Assembly (NCBI GenBank): GCA_017412605.1
Contig: JAFPWY010000011.1
Span: forward strand, 1-64,000
Direction: 5' to 3'
Length of the DNA stretch: 64,000 bases
From: Fibrobacter sp.
GTDB lineage: Bacteria; Fibrobacterota; Fibrobacteria; Fibrobacterales; Fibrobacteraceae
The notes below the pieces were generated by a model, which saw only the letters and a list, made by a program, of their open reading frames with translations, did no database searches and had not been told where the DNA came from. Made by a program: the position numbers and the translations under genes. Of the stretch, positions 375 to 18,000 are shown piece by piece; within the stretch, counting starts at the first letter, position 1, and each line of letters opens with the position of its first letter.

Positions 375-1601
375 CTAAATCTTCTTGAATATGAGCGAGG
401 TGTTCACTCCGCCGAAGGCGAAGTTGTTGCTCATGATGTATTCCACGTCCATCTCGCGGCCGTTACCGGTGATGTAGTCGAGCGGGGCACAGGCCGGGTC
501 CACGTTGTTGAGGTTCAAGTTCGGGCTGAACCATCCCCTGCGCATCATGTGGATGCTTGTCCAGGCTTCGATGCCGCCGCAGGCTCCCAGCGTGTGGCCG
601 ATATAGCTCTTGAGACTGCTGATGGGAACGGCGCGTTTGCCCAGCGCATTGTAGGTGGCCCAGGTCTCGGCGTTGTCGCCCTGCGGAGTGGCCGTGCCGT
701 GGCCGTTCACATAGCCGATAGCTTCGGGCGAAATTCCCGCATCTTCGACGGCGAGCTCGAGGGCGCGCTGCATGGTCTCGGTCTTGGGCGAGGTGAGGTG
801 ATCCCCGTCGGTGTTTGTCGCGAAGCCGACGAGTTCAGCGTAGATCTTGGCGCCGCGGGCCTTGGCGTGTTCGTATTCCTCGAGGACGAGCGTGCCGCTG
901 CCTTCGCCGATGACGAGACCGTCTCTGTCGCGGTCGTAGCTGGCGGGGGTGAGCTTGGGCGTGTCGTTCTTGGTGGAGGTTGCGAACAGCGTGTCGAATA
1001 CGGCGGACTGGGTCGGGTTGAGCTCTTCGGCGCCGCCGGCGATCATCGCGTCTTGCATGCCGTATTTGATGTATTCGTAGGCCGTTCCAATGCTGATGCT
1101 GCCGGAGGTGCATGCCGTGTTGGACGTGTAGAGGCGTCCCGTGAGCCCGAAGTAAACCGCAATGTTCACGGCGCATGTCTGCGGCATGGACTTGATGTAG
1201 GTGGTCGCGGTAATCTTGGAGCAGTCATCGGTCACGAGCATCGAGAAAAAGTCCACGAGCGGGTAGACGCTGCCCATGCAAGATCCGTAGGCGACGCCTA
1301 CGCGGCCGGACTGCAAAAAGGCGGGATCCTGGTCGAGTCCGGAGTCTTTGAGGGCCCTGACGGCAGACGCTGTGGCGAGCAGGGCGACGCGGCCCATCCC
1401 GCGGATTTTTTTGCGAGGCAGGTCGGGGACTTCGAAATGGACCGGCGAGGCGAGCCGGGTATTCATTTGCGTGTAACGGTCCCAGTCATCCATGCGGACG
1501 ACCTTGTTTTCCAGTTTATGGAGGCTGTCGAATACCTCGTCGACTTCGCAGCCGAGAGCGGAAATGCAGGAACCTCCGGTAACGACGACTCTACGGGTCA
1601 T
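375..1601 (-). CDS. apeR: Aryl polyene beta-ketoacyl-ACP synthase (ApeR-like, FabF/FabB family)
   Basis: Thiolase-fold condensing enzyme of 408 residues, probably performing malonyl-ACP condensations during polyene elongation. The Cys-His-His triad is intact: C164 in NTACTSG, H301 in NGHGTA and H336 in SYIGHTLGACGG, with K331 nearby. The C-terminus has the usual NNFAFGGVN motif. An upstream in-frame extension is possible, but the ATG at 1601 overlaps the preceding gene's TGA (ATGA at 1598-1601) and starts the typical MTRRVVVTGG strand. It is the last gene of the operon and is followed by a terminator. A second, divergent ketosynthase is three genes upstream, as in proteobacterial APE loci where ApeO and ApeR have separate roles. 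Confidence 0.92.
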   Translation of the reverse strand: MTRRVVVTGGSCISALGCEVDEVFDSLHKLENKVVRMDDWDRYTQMNTRLASPVHFEVPDLPRKKIRGMGRVALLATASAVRALKDSGLDQDPAFLQSGRVGVAYGSCMGSVYPLVDFFSMLVTDDCSKITATTYIKSMPQTCAVNIAVYFGLTGRLYTSNTACTSGSISIGTAYEYIKYGMQDAMIAGGAEELNPTQSAVFDTLFATSTKNDTPKLTPASYDRDRDGLVIGEGSGTLVLEEYEHAKARGAKIYAELVGFATNTDGDHLTSPKTETMQRALELAVEDAGISPEAIGYVNGHGTATPQGDNAETWATYNALGKRAVPISSLKSYIGHTLGACGGIEAWTSIHMMRRGWFSPNLNLNNVDPACAPLDYITGNGREMDVEYIMSNNFAFGGVNTSLIFKKI

Positions 1602-2326
1602 GCGAGCCCCCCGTTGACGGAAATGACCTGGCGCGTGATGTAGGCTGCGCCTTCGGAGAGGAGGAAAACCACAGTGGCGGCGACTTCGGAAGGCTTGCCG
1701 ACGCGCTTCATGGGTACTGCCTGCAGGATGATGTCGAGCGGGGCTTCCTTGATCATCTCGGTTTCGATGACGCCGGGGGCGACGCTGTTGACGGTGATGT
1801 TGCGGCTTGCAAGTTCCGTGGCGAGAGCCTTGGTTGCGCCAATGATGCCTGCCTTCGATGCGCTGTAGTTCACCTGCCCGCGGTTGCCGATGACGCCGGA
1901 GACCGAGGAAATGGTGACGATGCGTCCGCACCGCTTGCGGCACATGGGCATGACGAGTGGGCGTACGACGTTGAAGAATCCGTTCAGGTTGGTGTCGAGC
2001 ACCTTGTCCCAGGATTCGTCGCTCATGCCGGCGAACGTCATGTCGGAACAGACGCCTGCGTTGGAGACGACACCGTAGTAGACCCCGTTTTCTTCGAGGT
2101 CCTTTTCGAGGACTTCCTTGCACTGCTCGCGGTTGCAGATGTCGAATTGCAGCGTGCGGATGCTGCCGCCGGCTGCCTTGACCTTTTCCACAAGGGCTTC
2201 GATGGCTGCCGTACCGCGGTTGTAGTGAGCTACCACGGTGTAGCCCGCTTCGGCCACGGCGAGTGCGATGGCGCTGCCGATGCCGCCGCTAGCTCCAGTG
2301 ATGAGAACCTGTTTCTTGTTGTCCAT
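1598..2326 (-). CDS. apeQ: 3-oxoacyl-ACP reductase of the APE pathway (ApeQ-like, FabG family)
   Basis: Short-chain dehydrogenase that would reduce beta-ketoacyl-ACP with NADPH. The cofactor loop GASGGIG is at residues 11-17, the NNAG-like VSNAG near 88-92, and the catalytic S141, Y154 and K158 lie in ISSVSG and YSASK. Length is 242 residues, usual for FabG. I start it at the ATG at 2326, preceded by AAGGGAA. A TTG further upstream (2356) would add ten Lys/Asn-rich residues unlike the family. The stop overlaps the downstream ketosynthase start. Confidence 0.92.
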   Translation of the reverse strand: MDNKKQVLITGASGGIGSAIALAVAEAGYTVVAHYNRGTAAIEALVEKVKAAGGSIRTLQFDICNREQCKEVLEKDLEENGVYYGVVSNAGVCSDMTFAGMSDESWDKVLDTNLNGFFNVVRPLVMPMCRKRCGRIVTISSVSGVIGNRGQVNYSASKAGIIGATKALATELASRNITVNSVAPGVIETEMIKEAPLDIILQAVPMKRVGKPSEVAATVVFLLSEGAAYITRQVISVNGGLA

Positions 2327-2352
2327 TGTTTTCCCTTTGTTTTCCTTAATTT

Positions 2353-2811
2353 TCAAGTACCGCTTTGGGGGTCGTCTACTTCAATCGTATTGATGACGGC
2401 TGTCGCGACGATGGTGTCGCCCAGGGTAATGTTCCCGTCGAAGGTGACAATGTTGTCCATTCGCATTGTCTGCCTGACAAAAATCTTGGCTGTGGAGTTT
2501 GCTGGGAACACGGGCTTGTTTGCGGTAAAGTTGTTCACGCTCATGATGAATCCGATTTTCGGTTCTTGGCCTTTTGTCTTGCCGTAGAGACCGGAGAGTG
2601 CGGAAATGCTCTGTGCCATGTATTCGAAACCGATCCAGACGGGGATGCCATCGATGTCCTTGTCGAAGAACATGCTGCCTGGCGCGATGTCCACCTCGGT
2701 ATGGATTTCGAGCTTGCCGAAATCGTAGTCGACAACCCTGTCGAGCAGGGACATCTTTCCGGAGTGTGGAACGATTTGCATGATGGATTCTTTTGTATTG
2801 AACTCTTCCAT
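2353..2811 (-). CDS. apeP: 3-hydroxyacyl-ACP dehydratase, hotdog fold (ApeP-like)
   Basis: Protein of 152 residues of the FabA/FabZ-like hotdog superfamily, ApeP type. The N-terminus has PHSGKMSLLDRV with H16 as the probable catalytic His, and the central helix IGFEYMAQSISALSG carries the acidic residue (E) typical of the family. It would remove water from 3-hydroxyacyl-ACP intermediates to make the conjugated double bonds. In studied APE systems ApeP works with ApeI, and an ApeI domain is encoded upstream in the fusion at 9777-12086. The ATG lies directly after the upstream stop (TAAAATG) with AAAAGG as ribosome site. Confidence 0.85.
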   Translation of the reverse strand: MEEFNTKESIMQIVPHSGKMSLLDRVVDYDFGKLEIHTEVDIAPGSMFFDKDIDGIPVWIGFEYMAQSISALSGLYGKTKGQEPKIGFIMSVNNFTANKPVFPANSTAKIFVRQTMRMDNIVTFDGNITLGDTIVATAVINTIEVDDPQSGT

Positions 2812-2812
2812 T

Positions 2813-3994
2813 TTAGACCTTTTCTACGATGAGCGAAACGTTGCAGCCGCCGAAGGCGAAGGAGTTGCTCTGGATGCGCCTGATGCCCTTGCAGGAGTCT
2901 CCCGGGCGTACGAGCCGGATTTCGGGGATTTCGGGATCGAATTCCCCGTCGTAAAGGTGGGCGGGCAGGAACCCCTCGGGGTTGGAATCGGAGAGAACCA
3001 GGCAGCAGAAGCCGAGTTCCAGGGCACCGGCCGCGCCGAGCGTGTGCCCGGTGAGCGCCTTGGTGGAACTGCAAGGGACGTTAGTCCCGAAAATCTTGTG
3101 CACGGCGGTTCCTTCCATGGAGTCGTTCAGGCGGGTGCCCGTTCCATGGAGGTTGATGTAGTCGATGTCGCTTGGCTTTAGGCAAGCGTCATCGAGCGCC
3201 TTCGCCATGGCGAGGCGTGCCCCTTCTCCGTCGGCTCTCGGAGCCGTGATGTGGTCGGCGTCGGCGCTTTCCCCGATGCCTGTAATCTTGAATTTTGCAT
3301 TTCCCGGTTCTTTGGTGACGACAAAGAATGCGGAGCCGTCGCCGAGCGTGATGCCTGCGCGGTTCTTGCTAAAGGGAATGGTCGGCGTTGCGGATACGGC
3401 GGAGAGCGAGTTGAATCCGAGGACGACCGCCAGCGAGGCGATGTCTACGCCACCGATGATGGCCGCATCGCAGTCACCTACGTATATGCTGTGCCTGGCC
3501 GTGGCGATGGCCGTCGCGCTTGACCCGCATGCCGTGGACTGCAGTGCGCAGGGGCCGTGAATGCCGAACTTGGACATGATGTATTCCAGCGGGAAGTCGG
3601 CCTTCTGTTTGCACAAGTTGTAACCTGCAGGGAATTCTCCGTTCTGTTTCTTGTAGCGCAGCGCATTAATCGAAATTTCGGAACCGTTGTCGCACGAACC
3701 GATAAATACGCCGACTCGGTCTGCGCCGTACTTGGCAACCGTCGCCTGCACACTTTGCTCGATGTCGCGCAGCGAAATTTCGGCGAGCCTGTTTACCCGT
3801 TCGTTGTAGTAGGGATTTTCAGGAGCGGGGAAATCCGTCGTGTCGATGTTCGCGACGCAGAAATGCTCTTCGCCGTGATCGAGCGTAGAGAAGTCTCCGC
3901 GCACGCCCTTGATGAGCTTGTCGAAAACCTGGGCCTTGTCGTGGCCGAGTACGGAGTGAAAACTAAAATCTTGTATGTAGAGCGGCTGGTTCAC
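2813..3994 (-). CDS. apeO: Aryl polyene beta-ketoacyl-ACP synthase (ApeO-like)
   Basis: Condensing enzyme of 393 residues with an intact triad: C156 in STACGSSA, H283 in NLHGTGT, H317 in KALTGHTLGAAGA, plus NSFAFGGCN near the C-terminus. The start is GTG at 3994, overlapping the TGA of the preceding lipoprotein gene (GTGA), so translation is probably coupled. In characterised APE pathways ApeO pairs with the non-catalytic chain-length factor ApeC, whose homologue is encoded divergently at 12727-13407. Confidence 0.9.
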   Translation of the reverse strand: MNQPLYIQDFSFHSVLGHDKAQVFDKLIKGVRGDFSTLDHGEEHFCVANIDTTDFPAPENPYYNERVNRLAEISLRDIEQSVQATVAKYGADRVGVFIGSCDNGSEISINALRYKKQNGEFPAGYNLCKQKADFPLEYIMSKFGIHGPCALQSTACGSSATAIATARHSIYVGDCDAAIIGGVDIASLAVVLGFNSLSAVSATPTIPFSKNRAGITLGDGSAFFVVTKEPGNAKFKITGIGESADADHITAPRADGEGARLAMAKALDDACLKPSDIDYINLHGTGTRLNDSMEGTAVHKIFGTNVPCSSTKALTGHTLGAAGALELGFCCLVLSDSNPEGFLPAHLYDGEFDPEIPEIRLVRPGDSCKGIRRIQSNSFAFGGCNVSLIVEKV

Positions 3995-4596
3995 TGGGCT
4001 TGTCCCCCGGTTACCGTGTAGCTGTAGTTACGCAATGAATTTTTCAGTTCGATGGTGTTCCCGACCTTCCGGATTGTGAGTATGTCCCTGTTCCCTTTGG
4101 AGAGCTTGCGGAGGGTGACGTCCCCTTCGGTTGTCTCGATCAGCGTGAAGCCATAGGATTCAAAGTGGGGCTTGAGAACGGCCATATCGTAGTAGCAAAG
4201 CTGAATATCGGCGATGATGTATTCCGCCTTGATTTTCCCCATGTCCATCATGCTGCTGTTGAAGCGGACGGAATCGCGCGAGCAAGTGATTTCGGCCAGC
4301 GTGTTGCCGAAAGAACTGAAGAGGACAACGTTCAGGAGCGAGTCGTTCAGGCGCATCCATGCGTCCATCGAGAAATCCTTGTCCCCGTATCGGCCGTCGA
4401 TATGCTGGGGGGCGTCCATGGAAATCCCGCTGCCGGAAACGTCGAGCAGGTGCACGAATGCATCGTCGGTATAGTAGACGGGTGTCGCGGAAAGCCCGTT
4501 CTTGCCACTGTGGCAACAGCACAGGATGAGGCTGAACGCTATGACGAGCGCCTGTCCCAAACCGTTTATGCTGTGATGATTGCCTTTGAAGTCCAT
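3991..4596 (-). CDS. DUF3261-type lipoprotein of the APE cluster
   Basis: Protein of 201 residues with a hydrophobic N-terminal segment ending in a Cys-rich lipobox-like LILCCC, so probably membrane-anchored in the envelope. The remainder matches the expected size and position of the DUF3261 lipoprotein that accompanies the MMPL exporter and LolA-like protein in APE loci, where it is thought to help move the aryl-polyene lipid to the outer membrane. The assignment leans on context. No Shine-Dalgarno is visible; instead TATCTTTA ends 5 nt before the ATG, suggesting an internal promoter. Confidence 0.7.
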   Translation of the reverse strand: MDFKGNHHSINGLGQALVIAFSLILCCCHSGKNGLSATPVYYTDDAFVHLLDVSGSGISMDAPQHIDGRYGDKDFSMDAWMRLNDSLLNVVLFSSFGNTLAEITCSRDSVRFNSSMMDMGKIKAEYIIADIQLCYYDMAVLKPHFESYGFTLIETTEGDVTLRKLSKGNRDILTIRKVGNTIELKNSLRNYSYTVTGGQAQ

Positions 4597-4623: not shown

Positions 4624-6960
4624 TTATTTCCGTTTTTGAGTGAGTGGTGAAAGAAGGAAGCTGGTGAGCGTGCCAATGAATATCGAAAGCCCGAAGACAT
4701 ATACTGGCTGGAATTGGCTGAAAGAAAGCGATCCGAACGAAAGTATTGTCGTGGCAGCCGAAAGGGCGATGGCAAGTGCGGTCGTGCTGACGTGGCCCCC
4801 GCCCTCGCGGAAGAATAGCGAGTAGTCTATCCCGATGCCCAGGGTGAGGATGACGCCTGCGATGGCAAAGAAGTTGAAGTCGATACCGGCAAGGCCGAAA
4901 ACGCTTGCGACGGCAATGCCTGCGCATACGGGAATGCGGATAATCCTGAACGCCGTTTTCAGGTCGTACACGGGAATGAATATGGCGAACATGAGCAGGT
5001 TCGTGATGGCGACAAGGACAATCAGGATGCGCGAAATTTCCGTGAGCGAACGGCTGATTTCCGGTACCTTGTTCACGAAGTAGACTCCTTCGCAGCCGTT
5101 GGCGAGTCCAGGCAGCGCAGAGGCGTCGTTCACGTGGAGGGGGAGGACGGTGCTGTAGTAGGCTCCGTCGATTTCTCCAAGCCAAAGTGTCTGCAGGGCT
5201 GTCTGCCAGTCGGAGGGGAACGTGTCTTCGGGAGTGATTGGCCGGAAACTCTCCAGGCTTTTTTGGAATAGGGAATCGTTATCGAACTTCTGTGATTTCA
5301 AAAAGGTCGCCGCGTCTCCCTGCAGTGTCTGCTTGATAATTGCGAAACTTTCTTCTTGCCGTTTCTTTGACGGGACGAAGTAGCTTACAGCAAGATAGTT
5401 GCGGAAGACGGAATCCTTTTTCCCCTGTTCCATCTTGTGTATAAAGGATTCCTCTTTTTGCAGGACGTCTTCGGCGGATGCTCCCTTGACGATGTAATAG
5501 CTTCCGCTAGTGCCGAAGTCGATGACCTTGTTAGCAAGCGTCTCGGATTTCTTGAGCGAGTCGGAAACCGTGTAGAGGTTGTGCAAGTCGGTCTGGACGT
5601 TCAGGCGGATAAGACCCGGCACGGCGAGTGCGCAGAGCATAACAGGCAGGGCGATTTTCAGTGGTCGGCGAAGGCGGTAGTACCAGTCGTACATGTGCGA
5701 AAGCGATGCTGCCAGATGCGGGGCTCGTCCCGCACGTACATGGGTGGCTTTGGGGAACGCCTGGAAAAGGAATAACGTTGTGCACAGGGCGCTGGCAAGT
5801 CCGGTCGCGGAGAACAGGGCCATTTGCCTCAGGAGCGGGAACGGCGCCACGGAAAGCGCGATGTAGCCCAGTTCGGTTGTCATGAATCCGAGAAGGATTC
5901 CCTTGAGAATGCGCTTGCGGACTCCGTTGCCGTCGGGATTTTCGCTGGAAAATTTCCAGTCGGTGAAAAAGTGGATGGCATAGTCGATGCTGATGCCGAT
6001 GATGCTTGTCCCGAACACCAGCGTGAACATGTGGATTTCCCCGAAGAGGCTCCATGTGAGGGCGAGTGCGGACACAATTGCCATGAAGACGGAGGACAGC
6101 GTACTGGCGATGGGAATGGGGGTCCTGAATACGGCGATAAGGAGGACGAGCGCAAGGGTGATGGAAATGGCGGAAATCCAGGTGATTTCGGTCTGGGCGT
6201 TCTTGGAACTTTCGAAACTGTGGAACGGGACTCCCGACTTTGCAACGGAAATGCCTGGGTAGCGCATGTTGATGGAATCGATGGCTGCGTTGACACGCTC
6301 CAGGACATGTCCTTCGCTTGCGATTCCCTTTTCGTCGGGATGGACGCGGGCGCTCCAGAGAATGTACGTTTTGGCGGAATCGTTTGCGACGAGGCGCGAG
6401 TCCTTGATGGAAAGTTTGTTTGAAAGCAGGGGAGAGTACACTGTGAAACGGTCGAAGGCGCGGGCACCGAGTAGGTAGGGGTCTTCTTCGAGGTGCGAAA
6501 GGTCGCTGAGGCTGAAAGCGCCGTAAATGCGCTGGAGCGCTTCGTCGCGTGCGAACTGCGCCCCTGCCGTGCCAGTGAGAGCTTGTACGTAGTCATCGCC
6601 GAGCAGAGAGAACCGGTGACGGTAGGTGTAGTTGGCCGTTTCCTCAAGGGCGCCGTCGGAAATGGTGTAACGGACGGATTCCAATCGGGAGTCGTCCTTC
6701 AGCGTCGAGTCGAACCAGTCCGCCGCTTTGCGAGCGGTCTGGAAGTCCTCGTGGCCCACGAGGATGTTCAGCTGGTTCATCGTCTGCTCGCTCATCCGCT
6801 TCTCGGCTTCGCTCACGTCTTTGAGCGAACTTGCCGTAGGCAGGATGGAGTAGAGCGAGGTGTCGATATTCCAGGGGCGGGCACATAGCGCAAGCGCGAG
6901 CATGGCGATATGCACCATGCCCCAGACGGCGATACCTATGGGCTTGCTTTTATTTTTCAA
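4624..6960 (-). CDS. MMPL/RND-family exporter of the APE cluster
   Basis: Membrane protein of 778 residues with the architecture of an RND/MMPL exporter. One N-terminal transmembrane helix is followed by a large periplasmic loop, then five closely spaced helices (about residues 250-400), and the whole arrangement is repeated in the second half. It probably extracts or flips the lipid-linked aryl polyene, working with the LolA-like protein encoded just upstream. The start chosen is TTG at 6960, preceded by GAGG and AAGG inside the upstream gene, whose stop it overlaps. An ATG 14 codons later (6918) has no ribosome site and would cut into the first helix. Confidence 0.87.
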   Translation of the reverse strand: MKNKSKPIGIAVWGMVHIAMLALALCARPWNIDTSLYSILPTASSLKDVSEAEKRMSEQTMNQLNILVGHEDFQTARKAADWFDSTLKDDSRLESVRYTISDGALEETANYTYRHRFSLLGDDYVQALTGTAGAQFARDEALQRIYGAFSLSDLSHLEEDPYLLGARAFDRFTVYSPLLSNKLSIKDSRLVANDSAKTYILWSARVHPDEKGIASEGHVLERVNAAIDSINMRYPGISVAKSGVPFHSFESSKNAQTEITWISAISITLALVLLIAVFRTPIPIASTLSSVFMAIVSALALTWSLFGEIHMFTLVFGTSIIGISIDYAIHFFTDWKFSSENPDGNGVRKRILKGILLGFMTTELGYIALSVAPFPLLRQMALFSATGLASALCTTLFLFQAFPKATHVRAGRAPHLAASLSHMYDWYYRLRRPLKIALPVMLCALAVPGLIRLNVQTDLHNLYTVSDSLKKSETLANKVIDFGTSGSYYIVKGASAEDVLQKEESFIHKMEQGKKDSVFRNYLAVSYFVPSKKRQEESFAIIKQTLQGDAATFLKSQKFDNDSLFQKSLESFRPITPEDTFPSDWQTALQTLWLGEIDGAYYSTVLPLHVNDASALPGLANGCEGVYFVNKVPEISRSLTEISRILIVLVAITNLLMFAIFIPVYDLKTAFRIIRIPVCAGIAVASVFGLAGIDFNFFAIAGVILTLGIGIDYSLFFREGGGHVSTTALAIALSAATTILSFGSLSFSQFQPVYVFGLSIFIGTLTSFLLSPLTQKRK

Positions 6961-7612
6961 GGAGGGCCTTTTCCTCTGCAGTGAGCCCGCTGCCAGGCTT
7001 GGGGTTCGAAAGTTCGTACAGGAGGGGGCTTCCGCTCCCGTCTATAAGCTTTATTCGTTCCAACCAGGTCCCGCCGGTCAGTTCAATCGACTGGATTGCC
7101 TTTTTCACGGAGGCTTCCCTGGGGATGAGGCCTATGGTCCAGTTGCTGCCGCGTCGGTCAAAAAATATGTGGAAACCGGCCTGCAATTTGGACGTGCTGC
7201 CCGAAAAGATGGACTGAATCGCTTTTGCGATTTGTGCAAAGACAACGTTGTCCTTGGCGCTGATTTCGGAGTGGGATCCGTTCGCATTCTGCTGGACCAT
7301 GCGCGTCTCGGAAATGGCGAGTCGGCTGGCGAAGGGCTTTTCGGTGTCCCAGAGCACTCCCTTATCGTTTGCGATGACGAATTTTCCGACCGATACGAAT
7401 TCCCGGTTCAGCTGCGCGATGGTCTTTGTCTGCTTGAAATCCCCACGGACAACGGCATGCGCGGTCATGGGGGAGAATGTGCTGTCGATGGCCGTGGAAC
7501 CGCTATCCTTGAGGGGATGCTTCCAGATGTCGCCCCCTGCGGCGAAACTGTTTGCGGCAAACAACGTGAATGCACAGAGCAGGATGGCGGCTAATTTCAT
7601 CGGGACGGCCAT
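6950..7612 (-). CDS. LolA-like outer-membrane lipoprotein carrier of the APE cluster
   Basis: Protein of about 220 residues with a clear signal peptide (MKLAAILLCAFTLFAANSFA) and a LolA/LolB-like open-barrel length. APE loci consistently encode a LolA-type periplasmic chaperone next to the MMPL exporter, and it is inferred to carry the lipidic pigment across the periplasm. I chose the ATG at 7612 (AGG about 7 nt upstream); a second ATG at 7600 begins the signal peptide proper and is equally possible. Its last codons overlap the TTG start of the MMPL gene. Confidence 0.78.
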   Translation of the reverse strand: MAVPMKLAAILLCAFTLFAANSFAAGGDIWKHPLKDSGSTAIDSTFSPMTAHAVVRGDFKQTKTIAQLNREFVSVGKFVIANDKGVLWDTEKPFASRLAISETRMVQQNANGSHSEISAKDNVVFAQIAKAIQSIFSGSTSKLQAGFHIFFDRRGSNWTIGLIPREASVKKAIQSIELTGGTWLERIKLIDGSGSPLLYELSNPKPGSGLTAEEKALLEK

Positions 7613-7619
7613 GGTACAC

Positions 7620-8063
7620 CTATGCGTTGCCTTCGGCGAGCTTCTGCCGGTAGGCTTCGATTTTTTCGACGAGTTCCCTGGGGGAGACAAGATTTGTTTC
7701 GCGGGTCTTGATGTTGACCGCCATCTGCGTTGTTTCCGCCTTGGTGGTCACCTTGCCGGTTTCGATGTCGACGAAGGTGTACGTGAGGCGCAGCCCGAAT
7801 TCGTATTCGGTAATCCTCGCCGTGACCCGGACTTTTTGGCGGAACTGGAGCGGCCTTATGTACTTGACGTGAACGTCGACTACGGGCCAGCCGTAGCCAT
7901 CCTTTTCCATGTCGATGTAGGTGTAGCCGATTTTTTCAAGGAGCGCACAGCGGGCACGCTCCATAAAGTTTATGTAGTTCCCGTGCCACATGATTTGCAT
8001 CGGGTCGACTTCGTAGAAGGCGACTTCGATGTCGATGGATGTTTCGATAATGGGTTCGCTCAT
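7620..8063 (-). CDS. apeK: 4HBT-family acyl thioesterase (ApeK-like)
   Basis: Hotdog-fold thioesterase of 147 residues. The N-terminal EVDPMQIMWHGNYINFMERAR contains the YbgC/4HBT-type pattern with the catalytic Asp (VDP), followed by the conserved His-Gly-Asn-Tyr. It should hydrolyse acyl-ACP thioesters, either releasing product or clearing stalled chains. The start is the ATG at 8063, which overlaps the preceding gene's TGA (ATGA at 8060-8063). Confidence 0.85.
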   Translation of the reverse strand: MSEPIIETSIDIEVAFYEVDPMQIMWHGNYINFMERARCALLEKIGYTYIDMEKDGYGWPVVDVHVKYIRPLQFRQKVRVTARITEYEFGLRLTYTFVDIETGKVTTKAETTQMAVNIKTRETNLVSPRELVEKIEAYRQKLAEGNA

Positions 8064-9034
8064 GACTTTTGTTCCTTTTCTTCCCAAAAATCAAAAAAAT
8101 TGTACCACTGGTAGGGATGCTTCTTGCAGCTTTCCTCGACAAACGCTATGTATTCATCCATGAGCGCCTGGATTTTTTGTTTCCGGTCCTTGCGGCTGCC
8201 CGAAAATTCGGTTGTCGCCTTGCGAATCGTGAATTCGTACTTGGTGTTCAGACTGAAATTCTTGCAGCGGGTGCCTGCGCCGAAATAGATGGGGGCTCCG
8301 ATGATGCTAGCGAGAATGAACGCCCCTTCGGGAAATTCCGCCCAGTCGCCGAGAAACTGCTTGCGAACAGTGCGGTCGTGGTTCTTGGCGGAAATCCTGT
8401 CGCCGGCAATGACGATGAGGTACCCCTTGTCTATCTTGTCCTTAATCATGATGGCGGAATCAACGCCGATGTCGTTTGCGTTGATGATGTTGTCCATCAG
8501 TTCAGGGTTCAGCTTGCGCAACAGATCGTTGTATCTAGAGGAGTTGTCGATATCGACGATGGGGCAAATGCGCAGATCTTTTATCTTGGCGTCGTTGCCG
8601 CTATCTCCCAGGGACCGGAACATGTCCAGATTGCCGAGGTGCGAACTCAGGAGAATGGCTCCATGTCCGCTCGTGAGCTGTTTCCGGAGTTCTTCCCGTT
8701 CAGCATCTTTCGTGAGGTCGGATACGTTCAAGCGACCCATCCAGCTGAGCATCTTTTCGAGCATCTGCAGGACGAAACTGAAAATGTGCTTGTAGCAATC
8801 GATTGCGGTCGGCTTTTTCCGTCCGGTTGCCTTTGCCACCTTCTCGAGGTAGGTCATGGAATTCTTCCGGACCGGCTTTGCGCCGAGGAAAAAGAAGAAG
8901 CATATGGTTGCAGAGATAGCTACAATCAGGGGACGCGGCAGGTATTTGACCATGAGGAACATGAAGGTGAACGTCCATGACGTTCCCGACGAGACTTCCT
9001 TTTGGTCGTACCAGTTTGCCTGCGAATCAGCCAT
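8060..9034 (-). CDS. LpxL/HtrB-like lysophospholipid acyltransferase (C-terminal half of an ApeJ-type protein)
   Basis: Protein of 324 residues with an N-terminal membrane segment (about 20-50) and the LPLAT motif H132-LGNL-D137, the catalytic HX4D pair of lipid A late acyltransferases. Its likely role is to transfer the aryl-polyene acyl chain from ACP to a lipid or sugar head group at the inner membrane. In proteobacterial APE clusters this domain is fused to a family-2 glycosyltransferase in one ApeJ protein; here it is separate and overlaps the glycosyltransferase gene by 8 nt. Confidence 0.85.
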   Translation of the reverse strand: MADSQANWYDQKEVSSGTSWTFTFMFLMVKYLPRPLIVAISATICFFFFLGAKPVRKNSMTYLEKVAKATGRKKPTAIDCYKHIFSFVLQMLEKMLSWMGRLNVSDLTKDAEREELRKQLTSGHGAILLSSHLGNLDMFRSLGDSGNDAKIKDLRICPIVDIDNSSRYNDLLRKLNPELMDNIINANDIGVDSAIMIKDKIDKGYLIVIAGDRISAKNHDRTVRKQFLGDWAEFPEGAFILASIIGAPIYFGAGTRCKNFSLNTKYEFTIRKATTEFSGSRKDRKQKIQALMDEYIAFVEESCKKHPYQWYNFFDFWEEKEQKS

Positions 9035-9773
9035 TCTTCCTTTTTTTCCTTATGAGGAGGATGGGAAGGCGGAAGAGCATGCCGAAGAAGAGTTTGGTAT
9101 GCATCCACGAGATGGAAATGTTGTCCTTGACCATGCGGAAATTGGAAATGCCGTTTTCCGGGTACGTGACCTGGATCGGGTAAAAGTTCATCTCCATGCC
9201 TTTCCACTTGAGCCTTACGAGAATTTCGATGTCGAATCCCATGCGCAGGTTGGATAGCTTGCGGATGACGGGGAGCGTCTGCTTGATCGGATATACGCGG
9301 AACCCGCACATGGCATCGGGAATGTCGAAGGAGAGCGTCTCGATGGCAATCCAGAAGTTTGTTATCTTGCGCCCGTTCTCGCGGCTCTTGGGCACGGATG
9401 AGTCGTATTGAGGGAATCCCGAAATGAGGTTGCCGGGATGCTTCTTGGATGCCTTGATGAAAAATTCCAGTGCGTTCAGGTCGTGTTGCCCGTCGGCGTC
9501 AATCTGTACGGCATACGAGAAACCGGATTTTTGCGCGGCCTCGAACCCCATGGACACGGCATAACCCTTGCCGCCGTTTTTTTCGTAGGATACGAGCGTG
9601 ATGTCGGGATTTCTCGCGGCGATATCTTCGAGGACCTTCTTGGCTTCGGGCGTGTTTCCGTCGTCGACGATGAACACGTGGAGGCCTTTCCTGATGATGT
9701 CCTGGGCCACCGCCTCGACTGTGTTTTCGTGACGGTATACCGGGATGATGGCGCAATAGATAGAATCTTGCAT
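9027..9773 (-). CDS. Family 2 glycosyltransferase (N-terminal half of an ApeJ-type protein)
   Basis: GT-A fold protein of 248 residues with the nucleotide-binding FIVDDGN (34-40) and the metal-binding DADGQHD (92-98). A short hydrophobic and basic tail (LLIRKKRKNG) suggests membrane association. It may attach a sugar to the lipid scaffold that carries the polyene. The ATG at 9773 follows the upstream stop by 3 nt and the gene ends inside the acyltransferase start, so the two are probably translated as a coupled pair. Confidence 0.87.
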   Translation of the reverse strand: MQDSIYCAIIPVYRHENTVEAVAQDIIRKGLHVFIVDDGNTPEAKKVLEDIAARNPDITLVSYEKNGGKGYAVSMGFEAAQKSGFSYAVQIDADGQHDLNALEFFIKASKKHPGNLISGFPQYDSSVPKSRENGRKITNFWIAIETLSFDIPDAMCGFRVYPIKQTLPVIRKLSNLRMGFDIEILVRLKWKGMEMNFYPIQVTYPENGISNFRMVKDNISISWMHTKLFFGMLFRLPILLIRKKRKNG

Positions 9774-9776
9774 GGT

Positions 9777-12086
9777 CTACGCTTCCGCTCCGGTCTTGAC
9801 GCTGCCGCTTGAGTACTTCTTGCCTTCGCTACCGCTGAAACTGAATGCGATGCGTCCCGAGTCCTTGTCGTAGGAAAGCTCCAGGATGACCTTCGTATCC
9901 GGGAGGATTGGGCTTGTAAACTTTGTCCTCTGGATTTTCTGCATCGAGAGGGGCGCGTTTAGGTACTTGTGCGCAAGTTTCATGACGAAGTTTACTTGGA
10001 CTACGGCGGGGAGCAACTTGAAGGATTCAAAATGCCCGTTGAAAAAGTCGCTCGTTGCGGGAATTTCCATTTCGATGGTCGCCGCATTGTCCTGTACGTT
10101 CACGTTGAGAATCTTGTAGTTCGGGTCTTCCTGGCTGTCTTCGAAGAGGGCCTTGATGTCTGCGGTCTTGATTTTGCCCATGGCATCTTGCGGGAGCCTT
10201 TCGGGGAATCTCCAGCGCTTGGGGATGACGGTTGATTCGAGGTACTGCGAAAGGAAGTTCCTGAAGAACTTGTTCATCTCGAGTTTTGCGGCTCCCTTGA
10301 ATTTTTCCTTGCCGTCGAAGTTGAGGGCGATAGCCGCGGCGAGGTACTGGCGCTTGCCTGCCATGGCGATGACGCGTACGTCCTGCACCAGGCCCGTCTG
10401 GCGGAGGCGCATTTCGACTTCGGGGAGGGAAATGCGTTTTTCCTCGATCTTGACGATGGAATCGATGCGGCCAAGCAGCGTGAATCGTCCGTCATCTTCG
10501 AGCTTGATGAGGTCGGCAGTCGAGAATCCGCCCTCGTCGTAGATGTAGGGGGATTCCACGTGGAGGCAACCTTCCGCATTGAGCGTAATGACGTTGTGCG
10601 GGAACGGCTTGTAGAGGGGACCGTTTTTGCTCTGCCTGTGCGCCATGCAGCCGGTTTCGGTACTGCCGTAGATTTCGGTAGGCCAGTATTTGAGAATTTT
10701 TTCGGTTTCGGCGGCAGCGTCTTCGGGGAGCAGGCCACCTGCCGACAAGATAAACGGTGTTTCGGCAAAATCGACGGGCTCGTTTTTCCCGCCGGCGAGC
10801 CTTTTCAGGAAGGCGGGGCTTGCGACAATCACGAGCCTGTGCTCCTTGAGCGCACGCAGTTCTTCGGGGAACTCGACCGTATTCCTGCGGAACGGGACTC
10901 CGCTCATCAGCGCGAGCAGGAGCGAGAAGGTGAGACCGAAAATGTGGTGGTGGTTCACCGTGCGGACGACGAACGCGTGGTCGTACTTTTCAAGGAACTG
11001 GGTGGCGAATTCGTTCACTTCGTCTTCCAGTTGGATGAACTTCTTGGGAGATATCTTGGGCTTTCCCGTGGTTCCCGAAGTGTACATGTCCACGTCGGAT
11101 GTTTTCGGGTCGAACATGATCCACTTGCCGTCATCTTCGTGCTTGCCGAGAACGTCCTGGATCAGGACGGCACCTTCGGCGGGAAGGTCGGTAAGGAACG
11201 ATACGCCCTCGGTGCAGATTTCCTTGATGAATTCCTGCGTGCGGTTCGCGGAAATCTTTGCAGCCTTGCCTCCCTGCATCACGGCGACCAGTGCGACCAT
11301 GAAGTAGTAGCTGTCCTCGAAGTTCAGCAGCCATGCCTTTTCCTGCCTGGACTCGACTTCTTGGCGGACCCTGGACACGTCGGCCGTGAAGTCGGCCCAT
11401 GTCTTTATGTTGCGGTTGCCGTTGCCGTCGAAGGCGAATATGGAATTGGCGGCTCTTGTGTCGCGCTTGAAACTGGATATGTATTTATATTGGATCATTT
11501 TTTTTTGCACTTTTTTTCGAATAATAAATTCCCCTGAGAAAAGGAGTCCCATGAGGATGTAGGATAGCAGGCCGTTGTAGAGGGCCCATAGTTTGTCGGA
11601 GCCAAGGAAGCACGTGCACGCCGCAGCGGCTCCGTTAAAAATAAAAAACGCGCACCAGACGATTGTCACCTTGAGGCAATAGGGTTCTACAAATTGGCGC
11701 AGTGCCGATTTTTGCAGGGCCTTGTCGCCTATGCATGCCAGCTTGAAAACGAAACTGGGGCCAAGCGGCAGTGTCGATCCGAAAAGGACGAGGAGAGCGA
11801 TGCTTACGGCTACCGGGTAGAATTTCAGGGACAGGATGCTGTCTGTTACGCAGGCAAAGATGCCGCAGGCGAGGGCGAGGAAAAAGAGCATGCCGCTTTT
11901 TAGGGCTTGCTTCCAGCCCTTGCTGGCTGTCTTGAGGAGTGCGATGAGATTGAAGAAGGCGATGGCGAGCAAGGCGATGCTCAGAACCCTTGGGCGCAGC
12001 CCCCAAAAATAGAGACCGCAAAATACAAGCCCTGGGTATAGAACCGAAAGGGCGGCAAAGAGGACCTTTCCCGCCACGGTTCTCAT
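9777..12086 (-). CDS. ApeG-ApeH-ApeI fusion: membrane domain, aryl-acid:ACP ligase, dehydratase
   Basis: Protein of 769 residues that combines three functions usually encoded separately. Residues 1-200 are about six hydrophobic segments like the small COG4648 membrane protein ApeG. Residues 225-650 are an ANL-superfamily adenylating enzyme with YTSGTTGKPK (335-344), YGSTETG (473-479), GRIDSIVKIEEKRISLPEVE (539-558) and the C-terminal lysine of MGKIK (K640). Residues 665-769 are a hotdog dehydratase like ApeI, with FFNGHF (H685) and LLPAVVQ. It would activate the aryl starter acid at the membrane, load it on ACP and take part in dehydration. The ATG overlaps the ACP stop (ATGA at 12083-12086). 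No frameshift or internal stop is present, so the fusion is real unless the assembly is wrong. Confidence 0.88.
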   Translation of the reverse strand: MRTVAGKVLFAALSVLYPGLVFCGLYFWGLRPRVLSIALLAIAFFNLIALLKTASKGWKQALKSGMLFFLALACGIFACVTDSILSLKFYPVAVSIALLVLFGSTLPLGPSFVFKLACIGDKALQKSALRQFVEPYCLKVTIVWCAFFIFNGAAAACTCFLGSDKLWALYNGLLSYILMGLLFSGEFIIRKKVQKKMIQYKYISSFKRDTRAANSIFAFDGNGNRNIKTWADFTADVSRVRQEVESRQEKAWLLNFEDSYYFMVALVAVMQGGKAAKISANRTQEFIKEICTEGVSFLTDLPAEGAVLIQDVLGKHEDDGKWIMFDPKTSDVDMYTSGTTGKPKISPKKFIQLEDEVNEFATQFLEKYDHAFVVRTVNHHHIFGLTFSLLLALMSGVPFRRNTVEFPEELRALKEHRLVIVASPAFLKRLAGGKNEPVDFAETPFILSAGGLLPEDAAAETEKILKYWPTEIYGSTETGCMAHRQSKNGPLYKPFPHNVITLNAEGCLHVESPYIYDEGGFSTADLIKLEDDGRFTLLGRIDSIVKIEEKRISLPEVEMRLRQTGLVQDVRVIAMAGKRQYLAAAIALNFDGKEKFKGAAKLEMNKFFRNFLSQYLESTVIPKRWRFPERLPQDAMGKIKTADIKALFEDSQEDPNYKILNVNVQDNAATIEMEIPATSDFFNGHFESFKLLPAVVQVNFVMKLAHKYLNAPLSMQKIQRTKFTSPILPDTKVILELSYDKDSGRIAFSFSGSEGKKYSSGSVKTGAEA

Positions 12087-12343
12087 TTTTTCTCGCCCGA
12101 TTCCTGGATGAGGTCGTATATGGCGTCAACAACGTCCTGCAGCGTGCGCACGGACTTGAACACTTCGGGATCGATATTGCGCGGGAGCATGGACTTGAGT
12201 TTCACGATGAGGTCGACAGCGTCGATGGAATCGAGGTCGAGATCTTCGTAGAGACGTGCTTCGGGGACGACCTTGGAACTTTCCATGCCGAACTCACTGA
12301 TAAGCGCGTCTTGGAGTTTTTTCAGAATGTCTGACTTTTCCAT
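12083..12343 (-). CDS. apeF: Acyl carrier protein (ApeF-like)
   Basis: 86-residue ACP with the phosphopantetheine attachment motif DLDSIDAVDL (S39). It follows a first ACP gene by 1 nt, carries an AGGAAG ribosome site, and overlaps the ligase fusion. APE clusters use two distinct ACPs, one favouring the starter and one the growing chain; which is which cannot be told here. Confidence 0.92.
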   Translation of the reverse strand: MEKSDILKKLQDALISEFGMESSKVVPEARLYEDLDLDSIDAVDLIVKLKSMLPRNIDPEVFKSVRTLQDVVDAIYDLIQESGEKK

Positions 12344-12344
12344 A

Positions 12345-12614
12345 CTAGTCTTCCTGTTTGCTAGACGAAATGAATGCTGCCAAGGCGTTGACGGAGGCGA
12401 AATGCTTGCGCGTCTCGTCGTTCACGGCCTTGAAGGAAACCCCGAAATTCTCCTTGATTGCGAGACCGAGTTCCAGTGCGTCGATGGAGTCAAGGCCAAG
12501 GCCTTCGCCTTCACCGAAAAGCGGGGCGTCGTCGTCGATGTCGGCGGGCGTGACGTCTTCAAGTTCTAGCGCGCTGATGATGATGTTCTTTAATCTCGTG
12601 TTGAGGTCTTCCAT
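12345..12614 (-). CDS. apeE: Acyl carrier protein (ApeE-like), first gene of the APE operon
   Basis: 89-residue ACP with GLDSIDALEL (attachment serine S43) and the acidic, helical composition of the family. Ribosome site AAAAAGGG lies 4-5 nt upstream of the ATG at 12614. It is the promoter-proximal gene of the thirteen-gene minus-strand operon. Confidence 0.92.
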   Translation of the reverse strand: MEDLNTRLKNIIISALELEDVTPADIDDDAPLFGEGEGLGLDSIDALELGLAIKENFGVSFKAVNDETRKHFASVNALAAFISSSKQED

Positions 12615-12692: not shown

Positions 12693-12726
12693 CATACCAT
12701 TCTTTTGTTTTTTTTTGATTCTTGAA

Positions 12727-13407
12727 ATGTCCAGAATTATCCATATAAGCAAGTACAGTTTCTGGGCTCCAGGTTTGGAAACCGCCGAGGACTTGGCGGC
12801 TTTTGCGCGTGGGGATAAGGAAGTTTCCCGTATTTCCGCGGTTCCTGCCCTCCCGTTCGTGCCGATGCTCATGCGCCGCCGGCTTAGCGATGTCTCCAAG
12901 ATGGCTGTCTATGTGAACCATTTTGTGTCGGAAGGGCTTCCCGAGGCGAAAATCACGTTTGCCTCGGAATTCGGCGAGGTTCGGCAGCAATTGAAGATTT
13001 CTGAACACCTGATCGAGGCCGATACGGTATCGCCTGCGGCGTTCAGCCTCTCCGTGTTCAACGCCCCCGTCTCGTGCGCGACGATTGTCGAGAAAAACAT
13101 GGCCGGCTACTCCGCTGCCTATGCCGGGGCTGCATCCTTCCTGAATGGTCTCAAGGACTGCGCTGCCGCGCTTTCTACGGGTGAAGGCGACGAACGCATA
13201 TTCCTTTTCTCGGACGAACTGGTTCCCGAAACATACGCCTCCGTTGTCGAAGGCTATCCAAATGTGCCCTGCGCCATGGCTTTGCGGCTTTCGTCTGTCG
13301 CGCAGCCGGGCGGCATCGACCTGGATATCGGCGGAATTCCGGAAACGCGCTTTGCCGCCGAGCAGGCGCTCTGGCTGCTCAAGAAGATTCTCGTGGAGAA
13401 CGCATGA
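12727..13407 (+). CDS. apeC: Beta-ketoacyl synthase chain length factor (ApeC-like)
   Basis: 226-residue protein of the Ketoacyl-synt_2 type (PF13723-like): a thiolase-fold half lacking the catalytic cysteine region. Segments such as SFWAPG near the start and SLSVFNAPVSCATIVEKN are typical of APE chain length factors, which pair with the ApeO ketosynthase. The ATG at 12727 was chosen; a TTG four codons earlier is possible. Its stop overlaps the next start (ATGA at 13404-13407). In proteobacteria this gene heads the same operon as the ACPs, whereas here it is inverted. Confidence 0.83.
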   Translation: MSRIIHISKYSFWAPGLETAEDLAAFARGDKEVSRISAVPALPFVPMLMRRRLSDVSKMAVYVNHFVSEGLPEAKITFASEFGEVRQQLKISEHLIEADTVSPAAFSLSVFNAPVSCATIVEKNMAGYSAAYAGAASFLNGLKDCAAALSTGEGDERIFLFSDELVPETYASVVEGYPNVPCAMALRLSSVAQPGGIDLDIGGIPETRFAAEQALWLLKKILVENA

Positions 13408-14201
13408 TGTTCATCTTGCGGCGGATGGCCTACTGCTGGCGTGTGTTCATCAAGTTGATGACGTACTTCTGGTTTGGGCTGGGAAGCCTTTTCCTCGCGA
13501 CGGGCCTATTCCCCACGCTGCTCCTGCTGTCCGGCTTTTCCAGGGCGCGGTTCGGTCGACTTGCCCGGTTTTCTGTGCACTTGTCCCACAAGCTTGCGCT
13601 TGCGCATTTTGTCTATTTCGGCCTCGGGAAAATCCATGTGGAACACCGTGAAAGGCTGAAAGGGCTTAGGTCCAAGGTTATCGTGGCGAACCATCCGTCG
13701 ATTTTGGATGTGGTCATCCTGTTCTCGCTGATTCCCAATGCCGACTGCATCGTGAAGGGGAGCCTGGGCCAGAACCGCTTCATGAAGGGAATCGTCAACT
13801 CCATCTATATAGTGAATTCCAAGACGTTCGAGGACCAACTGGCCGAAACGGACAAGTCGCTCAAGCGGGGCAACTGCCTGATTATCTTTCCGGAGGGAAC
13901 GCGCTCTGCGCCGGGACAACGCTGGCAGTTCAAGAAGGGCGCCGCCCGGTTTGCCCTCCATTCCAAGTGCGATGTCGTCCCCATCTACATTGGCGGCAAC
14001 GACAAGATCGGACTGGGGAAACACGATTCCTTGTTGGAAGTGAATCCGACGGGACGGTATCGTTTCGCTCTAGATGTGCTGGAACCCATTCCTATCGAGA
14101 AATTCCTGGGGTATCCGCCGAGCCAGGCTGCGATTCTTTTGACGCAGGAAATGCAAAATGTGCTTGAATCCCGCCGCAATCAAGAAATTGCGGGTGCATA
14201 G
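13404..14201 (+). CDS. PlsC-like 1-acyl-glycerol-3-phosphate acyltransferase (ApeD-like)
   Basis: 265-residue membrane-associated acyltransferase with an N-terminal hydrophobic segment (about 20-45), the catalytic H97-PSIL-D102 (HX4D) and the phosphate-binding FPEGTRS at 162-168. It is the second APE-locus acyltransferase, beside the LpxL-like one. Its exact acceptor is not known; a lipid anchor for the polyene is the usual inference. It is translationally coupled to the chain length factor. Confidence 0.86.
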   Translation: MMFILRRMAYCWRVFIKLMTYFWFGLGSLFLATGLFPTLLLLSGFSRARFGRLARFSVHLSHKLALAHFVYFGLGKIHVEHRERLKGLRSKVIVANHPSILDVVILFSLIPNADCIVKGSLGQNRFMKGIVNSIYIVNSKTFEDQLAETDKSLKRGNCLIIFPEGTRSAPGQRWQFKKGAARFALHSKCDVVPIYIGGNDKIGLGKHDSLLEVNPTGRYRFALDVLEPIPIEKFLGYPPSQAAILLTQEMQNVLESRRNQEIAGA

Positions 14202-15087: not shown

Positions 15088-18000
15088 TTGATTTTTAGAA
15101 GACGGTTACATAGGGCTTTCTTGAATGGCCTTACGGGTGCGCTTATCGCAGCGGGTTTCGCCTTTGCTCAGGCGACGTCCGCATCTGATGCGCAGTCTTC
15201 GGATGCAGATTCGACGGAAAGACAGCCGGATCCGGCCGAAACGGAATGGCAGCCGACCCTCAACTACATTGCGCTCCCTCCGTCTGCGGCTCCGCTCGAC
15301 AACCTTTTGCCCTTTAACGGTGTCGGCGCCAACCCGGGCCTGATGAACACGAGCAAGGGCCGCGTGTTCAGCCACGATATCGACATTGCCACCCGTGAAC
15401 TTGATGTGAGCGAAAAGCGCGTGAATGGCGTTTCCCGCGACACGACGACACTCTGGACGGCGCACTATCCCGAACTGGCGGACTACGTCTCCGACATGTA
15501 CGATGTGGGTCGCCGGCGTCTGTGGCTGAACGGCCTTGTCGGCCAGGCGAATGACGGGTACGAGGCCCCGGAGACCGGTTCCGTTTTTGATATCACCATC
15601 CCGGTGAACATGCCTGCCTGGATGAGGGACTTCGGTCTCGACAAGCCGAAACTCATGCTGCAGGGTACCATGGATATCCGCCTCAAGGGCTATGGCGAGA
15701 AGGACGATGCGCCGGGAAGCGACAATACGAGTCTTTGGCCGTCTCCGTCTCTTTCGTACGACCCGAGCTTCATGGTGAAGGGAAAGATCGGTCCTTACAT
15801 CACGGTCGAAATCAACAACGTGGAAAGCGGCCTCGGGGTCAAGAACCAGGTCCGTGTGGTTTACGAGGAATCGTACAAGGACGAATTCGAGGACTACATC
15901 CTGCAGCGTGTAGAAGCCGGTACGACTTCCTTGACGCTTTCGGGTACGGAGTTGACGGGTTATTCGGAACAGCACCAGGGCCTGTTCGGTATCAAGGCTG
16001 ACTGGAAACTGGGCGACTGGCGCCTCACGACTATTGCTTCTCAGGACGGTGGAAGCCAGGAAGAGTATTCCATCAACGCTAGCGAGTCCACCACGGAATT
16101 CCAGGTGCTCGACAAGCAGTTCGTCGCCTACCGGTACTACTTCTTGACCTACAATGCGAGATCCAATTACATCAAGAATGTCATTACGGGTACGCCGCCA
16201 CCTAATTTCAAGGCCGACCACCTTAAGCTTTATAAGCGTATCACGACGAAGGGTGATAAAGGCGACAATGTTTTTGATAACCTGAAACTCGTTTACAAGA
16301 CTCCGGATGGCACGAAGGTCACGAAGGAAGTGACCCGCATGGTCGCTATTCCCAAGGAAGAGTACGACTTCGATAACAAGACGGGTATCTTGAAAATTTC
16401 CGGTGCAAATCGCAATACGGTGATTGCCGCGAGCTGGGATACCGACAGTACCGATCGTAAAGGGAGTACGGTCCGTGACGGTGATGAGGTCGTCCTTGTT
16501 CAGTGGGATGCCAATCTTGCGGAACTGAAGGATATCGACAAGTTGATGCTCAGGAACGTGTATTCCATAGGCATTTCCGATGCGAGCTCGAGCAACTTTG
16601 TGCTGCGCATGAAAAACAAGGCCGGCGTGACGAACTCCTTCCTGAAGGACCTTGGCGTGGCGGACTCGACTACCGGTGCGCCCCTTGTCAACGATGTTTC
16701 GATCTTCAAGAAAGACAACTCGGGAAGCTATACTGGCGAAATGTGGCTCCCCTGTAAGCGGATTTCCGAATACAAGGGCCCGAACGCAAAAGCGAAGGCT
16801 ACTGAAAACTGCCTTGAACCGTTGCGCAACATAGATTCGTCTGCTGCCATGGCTCAGCTCTACACGCTTCCGGTCTATAACCTAAACCGTTATGCTAGCC
16901 GGTTCTACTTCGAATCCGTCGGTAAGCGCCGCAATTCTACGATTAGCGTGCGTGATCCCAATTCCAGCTATTCTGTCAGTGCCGGTTCCTGTATGGACAT
17001 TTCTCCGGGTTCCGAAAAGCTGACTGCCGGTTCCACTGTGCTCGTCCGCGATGTGGACTACGAAGTCAACTATGAGCTGGGCCAGATTGAACTTTTGAGT
17101 GAACGCGCCCTGGATCCCAACAAGGAAATCAAGGTGACGTTCGAGTGCGAGCCGCTGTTCGAGATAGACAACAAGCTCTTGCTGGGTGCCCGTGCCGAGT
17201 TGCCGCTGGAACGCTACGGGTTTGGTGCCGGTTCCGTATTCGGCATTACCGCACTGTACAAGAGCCAGAGCACGACGGCCAGGACCCCGACGCTCGGCAA
17301 CGAACCGTTCCACAGCTTCCTCTGGGGCATGAACCTCCGCCTGCAGGACACCCTTTCTGCGCTTACGACGCTGGTCAACATGATTCCGTTTATCGAGACG
17401 CAGGCGATGTCCAACTGGCGTTTCGAGGCCGAATTTGCAAGTAGCCGCCACAATGCCAACACGAGCGAATCCAATGACGCCCTTGTCGAGGACTTTGAGT
17501 CGACGGCTTCCGGCCTGATGTATCCGCTGTCCAGGCTTTCCTGGTACCCGGCCTCTCCTCCGGGCGGTGTCGAAGGTACGCAGACCTATATTCCGAACCA
17601 GGACTACCGCCATAAGGGCGAATTCATCTGGCATAGCAACAGCACCGAGCTTTACAAGTATATCTACCCGAATGTGGGCAACTCCGACGTCGACAACCAG
17701 CACTTGACCGTGCTCAAGATGACGCTCCGTGCCAACGACAACCTCATGGGCAACTCCTGGGGCGGTATCATGCGCCCGAACAGCTCGTATTACCAGGATA
17801 TGAGCGACTTGAAGTACATCGAGATTGTTGCCCGTGGTAACGTGGGTTCTATCTATATTGATCTGGGCCTTGTCAGTGAAGACCTTTCCATCAACGGCGG
17901 TTCTCCGAATGGCCGTTACGACGGTGAAAATGATTTGGGAACGACCACCGCCCTCCACGACAAGGGTATAGACGGTGTTTCCGGTTCCGAAGAAGCCGAC

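Follow-up and report, generated by a model that had tools for sequence, protein, structure and literature searches.

One open reading frame in an aryl polyene (APE) cluster of Fibrobacter sp. (family Fibrobacteraceae) was confirmed to encode three Ape proteins as a single chain of 769 aa, in which the membrane protein ApeG is followed by the acyl-ACP ligase ApeH and the hotdog dehydratase ApeI. The frame lies in a stretch of 64,000 nucleotides (contig JAFPWY010000011.1), all of which was analyzed and is referred to here as the window. The fusion is a real and conserved variant of a known pathway and was correctly recognized in a preliminary description of this DNA; the main consequence, namely, its bearing on ApeG, the least understood of the Ape proteins, was missed there. 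We regard it as probable that the protein constitutes a membrane-docked module for APE priming and dehydration.

Domain architecture and gene cluster

The frame starts with an ATG and is continuous over the 769 residues that the preliminary description had placed at positions 9777 to 12086; the strand, which had been left out, is minus. The motif positions given there were exact (YTSGTTGKPK at residues 335 to 344, YGSTETG at 473 to 479, and FFNGHF at 681 to 686). A Pfam search of the protein returned an AMP-binding domain at residues 334 to 483, above the cut-off, and the ApeI-like domain PF22818 at residues 667 to 750 (32.2 bits against a curated cut-off of 28.5), which confirms the expected hotdog region at the C terminus. 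The N-terminal 200 residues were without a Pfam match. In BLAST comparisons with Escherichia coli CFT073, the N terminus was 33% identical to ApeG over 194 aa (E value of 1e-25), residues 197 to 651 were 32% identical to ApeH (2e-63), and residues 672 to 764 were 35% identical to ApeI (2e-15). Together with the Pfam domains, these matches bore out the identity of the three parts and the assignment to the APE pathway. Essentially no linker has been added between the parts. The ApeF stop codon overlaps the start codon of the fusion (ATGA). An internal start at Met197 was ruled out; this Met is not conserved. A model of the full-length fusion reached a pLDDT of 77 and a pTM of 0.50, being unreliable at residues 248 to 404 and weak between the domains. 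The features of the fusion and of its surroundings are as follows:

9777..12086, minus: ApeG-ApeH-ApeI fusion, one open frame of 769 aa with an ATG start (Pfam; BLAST against E. coli ApeG, ApeH and ApeI)
11496..12086, minus: ApeG domain, residues 1-197 (BLAST against E. coli ApeG; AlphaFold model; loop charges)
10137..11489, minus: ApeH domain, residues ~200-650, ANL acyl-ACP ligase (Pfam AMP-binding; motif residues)
9780..10124, minus: ApeI hotdog dehydratase half, residues ~655-769, with His685 (PF22818; 6qsr chain A)
12345..12614, minus: ApeE acyl carrier protein (56% to E. coli ApeE)
12083..12343, minus: ApeF acyl carrier protein (49% to E. coli ApeF)
9027..9773, minus: glycosyltransferase half of ApeJ as its own gene (45% to the N-terminal half of E. 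coli ApeJ; PF00535)
8060..9034, minus: acyltransferase half of ApeJ as its own gene (31% to the C-terminal half of E. coli ApeJ; PF03279)
7620..8087, minus: ApeK thioesterase (4HBT_2; gene order)
6950..7690, minus: ApeL, LolA-like (PF03548; NCBIfam LolA2_flexi below its cut-off)
4624..6960, minus: ApeM, MMPL/RND transporter (PF03176)
3991..4596, minus: ApeN, DUF3261 (PF11659)
2813..3994, minus: ApeO ketosynthase (36% to E. coli ApeO)
2353..2811, minus: ApeP, partner dehydratase half (PF22817; 6qsr chain B; alignment with 10 relatives and E. coli)
1598..2356, minus: ApeQ ketoreductase (FabG-type)
375..1601, minus: ApeR ketosynthase, start set at the ATG at 1601 (ketoacyl-synthase domains; translation, synteny)
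12715..13407, plus: ApeC chain length factor (PF13723; 30% to E. coli ApeC)
13404..14201, plus: ApeD acyltransferase (PF01553)

With two ACPs, the ApeH ligase, a ketosynthase with a chain length factor, a ketoreductase, two dehydratase halves, and an MMPL exporter accompanied by LolA-like and DUF3261 proteins, the gene content points to a near-complete APE cluster, the lipid product of which is putative. ApeE and ApeF are encoded upstream of the fusion on the same strand, and the split ApeJ is followed downstream by ApeK, -L, -M, -N, -O, -P, -Q and -R. No counterparts of E. coli ApeA and ApeB were identified in the window cluster. ApeC and ApeD head the cluster in E. coli; here, both lie on the opposite strand, divergent from the main operon. 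ApeJ, a single gene in E. coli, is divided into two in the window, a trend opposite to that of the G-H-I fusion. A gene for a 2,283-aa SprA-type protein (15088-21939, plus strand; N-terminal domain PF14349) adjoins the cluster; proteins of this family are associated with type 9 secretion and with gliding.

Conservation and origin of the fusion

A search for the same three-domain order found it in a single stop-free frame in 48 of the 151 genomes of our phylum sample (counted from the tables), at 87% down to 44% identity to the window protein, and related joins were found in Verrucomicrobiota. The domain borders were checked for a stop or frameshift, and none was found. An A-rich stretch near the G/H border could be taken as a sign of a sequencing or assembly artifact; however, the frame is open in these 48 genomes and a conserved internal start at Met197 is absent. 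The conservation refutes this explanation, to which we assign a negligible probability.

The surroundings of the fusion were likewise conserved. The ACP pair lay beside it in all 35 loci checked, the glycosyltransferase in 34 of these and the acyltransferase in 33, the exceptions being loci whose sequence stops shortly past the fusion or right where the acyltransferase match would fall. The J-K-L-M-N-O-P-Q-R genes were mostly located downstream in the ten genomes examined. The fusion is general among Fibrobacteraceae genomes that carry the APE cluster and not peculiar to the window genome. It is not obligatory in the family, as ApeG is truncated and apart from H-I in two genomes (G107 and G128). 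Both are placed inside the fused clade on the tree, and their separate ApeG may thus reflect a later split. Another genome carries, in addition to a copy that is 87% identical, a second fusion copy (L046, G096:C41) of 52% identity in which the ApeG part is gone or decayed; this suggests that one APE cluster was replaced by another.

To place the fusion in a wider context, 79 loci outside the phylum were collected with an ApeG profile (mainly Pseudomonadota; the sample did not extend to Bacteroidota and Alphaproteobacteria). ApeG was free in all 79, and by our own count ApeH and ApeI were joined in 31. An ApeH-ApeI didomain has already been published for Acinetobacter baumannii (PMC8041823). 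In the E. coli-type class, 369 genomes yielded no unbroken G-to-I match; in the three cases where a match was interrupted by a stop, the genes turned out to be separate. Inside the phylum, a class-level relative (G059) has a free G and a joined H-I, and G and H are separate in an outer family. The triple fusion is real but did not arise de novo: since the H-I join is published and recurs in the outside loci, the new step in Fibrobacteraceae is the joining of ApeG to ApeH. In the open-access literature, to which the search was confined (subscription papers lay outside it), no report of this join was found.

Joins of G and H were also observed in a second phylum. In the Verrucomicrobiota loci L132 to L135, the last 100 to 130 residues of ApeG are in frame with an ApeH without its first ~128 residues, followed by ApeI, and these fusions adjoin ApeE/ApeF-like ACPs. 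In L143, G and H are joined and ApeI is separate; other Ape genes were not detected in its surroundings with the queries used. The G-joined state required five changes on the ligase-core tree, in which long branches are present. Constraining the Fibrobacteraceae and Verrucomicrobiota joins to one clade cost 47.6 log units (AU test, P of 0.028), and a single origin is disfavored with moderate support. Several other arrangements were recorded. An ApeH starting at the P-loop (~128 residues short) is found in the Verrucomicrobiota loci L132-L136, L138, L144 and L148 and is thus shared by several genomes. ApeG is directly followed by ApeI, with no ApeH between them, in L064 and L125, and an 888-aa frame in L157 (G850) contains two ApeH-like ligase domains in tandem and adjoins an ApeG-like gene.

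The fusion could be neutral: overlapping, translationally coupled genes would have lost a stop, and the parts would act as they do when separate, with neither docking nor channeling. The E. coli genes offer a ready starting point, as G and H overlap by ATGA and H and I by 14 bases, and where operon genes overlap to begin with, a fusion can become fixed by drift; the near absence of an added linker and the separate G in two genomes of the family fit as well. However, fusions occur in two phyla and have been kept in 48 genomes at identities down to about 44%, and the verrucomicrobial forms retain the membrane part even though their ApeH has lost the first 128 residues. We therefore consider a neutral fusion unlikely.

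Ligase, starter unit and dehydratase

The fused enzymes are presumably active. All ApeH motifs are intact (P-loop, A5, A7/A8, and the A10 lysine, Lys638), and the ligase motif residues were invariant over 11 family members. In characterized systems, ApeH puts 4-hydroxybenzoate on ApeE (PMC8253772, PMC8776678). Neither a chorismate lyase nor an aromatic ammonia-lyase was found for the window genome, PF00221, PF04345 and PF01947 having zero matches in the whole genome. The aromatic starter in this genome is therefore uncertain, with plant-derived phenolic acids as one possible source. In many ape clusters (among them L184, L188-L190, L192 and L193), other Fibrobacteraceae included, an aromatic amino acid ammonia-lyase gene (PF00221) lies between the acyltransferase and ApeK; in the window, it is absent at this place (8060-8087).

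FabZ enzymes carry out catalysis with a His and a Glu. The catalytic His (His685 in the fusion) was kept in every ApeI aligned. The position 14 residues past it is acidic in most ApeI sequences, Asn in the window protein, and occupied by many other residues elsewhere. ApeP is the reciprocal case, with the Glu kept and the His absent in the window, in ten other Fibrobacteraceae and in E. coli. The best PDB match of the window ApeI was chain A of 6qsr (E value of 1e-11) and that of ApeP was chain B of the same structure, the source species of which is Xenorhabdus doucetiae. According to PMC8041823, ApeI and ApeP pair into a heterodimer that has a single active site. The complementary His and Glu and the matches to the two chains of 6qsr thus provide good support for the earlier proposal that the fused ApeI should recruit free ApeP (2353-2811), and a plain homodimer should not work. 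The accompanying idea that the fusion enforces a 1:1 stoichiometry is weak, since each chain is primed once and dehydrated in every extension cycle. The proposed tethering of starter loading and dehydration to the membrane is probably right.

ApeG and the proposed role of the fusion

The ApeG part was recognized by its similarity to E. coli ApeG and by its position between ApeF and ApeH. Its AlphaFold model is confident (pLDDT of 90) and contains six membrane helices, in support of the six-helix domain proposed before. Counting of Lys and Arg residues in the loops gave 13 on the proposed inside, where both termini are located, versus 1 outside. A topology with both N and C termini inside is thus predicted, which should put ApeH-ApeI on the cytoplasmic side, together with ATP and the ACPs.

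Several comparisons related ApeG to the YciB/IspA (IspZ) septation family. The Pfam model IspA (PF04279) was matched weakly by 14 of 41 ApeG sequences (best E value of 1.7e-5), and NCBIfam models of septation protein A match ApeG sequences too. A profile-profile comparison of ApeG with 21 YciB proteins yielded a probability of 96% and an E value of 1.9e-9, whereas reversed, shuffled and block-shuffled controls gave E values of 0.0004 or worse. This match was reproduced by both halves of the ApeG set; the alignment spans about 104 columns at ~15% identity and has a shared W..FF pattern. At the Pfam cut-off, PF04279 was not matched by the window ApeG or its genome, and no solved relative emerged when the ApeG model was searched with Foldseek (best E value of 0.48). 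On the basis of these profiles, ApeG is a distant relative of the YciB/IspA family and not a member proper. We know of no role of YciB as a biosynthetic dock.

A different role has been published: from its COG4648 label, ApeG was proposed to be a pyrophosphatase driving export (PMC8253772). ApeG would then power the export of the APE lipid via ApeM by hydrolysis of ATP or pyrophosphate, and the fusion would be an accident of operon order. ApeG is indeed usually encoded directly upstream of ApeH, so that loss of a stop codon would fuse the two by chance. However, ApeF and ApeJ remained unfused despite the same operon order, and the G-H joins appear to have arisen more than once and were retained over most of a family. 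Furthermore, the conserved acidic metal-binding or nucleotide-binding residues expected of a COG4648 "pyrophosphatase" were not found in ApeG: E186 was the only invariant acidic residue over the 41 sequences, no nucleotide-binding motif stood out among them, and the protein is kin to YciB/IspA, not to a hydrolase. An export role that leaves the fusion to chance therefore seems to us quite improbable. The relationship to YciB, the lack of hydrolase-like residues and the repeated fusion to ApeH argue for ApeG most likely being a membrane dock for the synthase, rather than a source of energy for export.

In the membrane-docked module that we propose, the YciB-like six-helix ApeG would reside in the inner membrane and have two cytoplasmic ends, and its last helix would run straight into the ligase. 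ApeH would adenylate the aromatic starter and load it onto ApeE. The ApeI half and free ApeP would form one dehydratase active site, to which the fusion would contribute His685 and ApeP the Glu; the dehydratase would work in each extension cycle beside the membrane. The polyene would later be attached to a lipid (ApeD and ApeJ) and exported (ApeM, ApeL and ApeN), and ApeG would serve to keep the cytoplasmic synthase on the membrane and not to energize export.

The natural fusions kept in two phyla tie ApeG to starter loading and dehydration and suggest that it works with pigment synthesis, not export. In a wider reading of the Rosetta Stone type, they would expose a general membrane-bound complex in which ApeG is a YciB-related membrane scaffold on which the soluble type II polyketide machinery of every APE bacterium is docked; this would contradict the export-energy role, and we put it forward tentatively, as a generalization with somewhat less than an even chance of being correct. 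The YciB kinship is the first family-level clue to ApeG. The value of the fusion is that the role of ApeG becomes testable: as a single-chain tool, one gene together with ApeP could be used to test whether polyenes are synthesized at the membrane.

Known systems share parts of this arrangement. As expected from the preliminary description, E. coli CFT073 has ApeG, ApeH and ApeI (c1198, c1197 and c1196) in the same order, between two ACPs and ApeJ; there, the three are separate, overlapping genes and ApeJ is a single gene instead of two. The A. baumannii protein (PMC8041823) also has a ligase followed by a C-terminal ApeI that pairs with free ApeP, but it represents the H-I join only, to which the Fibrobacteraceae have added the N-terminal ApeG domain. 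The ApeI/ApeP pair of 6qsr has complementary catalytic residues, as in the window, although its ApeI is a separate chain of 119 aa. The Verrucomicrobiota fusions (L132-L135) likewise have the ApeG membrane part in frame with the ligase and ApeI but differ in their partial ApeG, in their shortened ApeH and in being set apart on the ligase-core tree.
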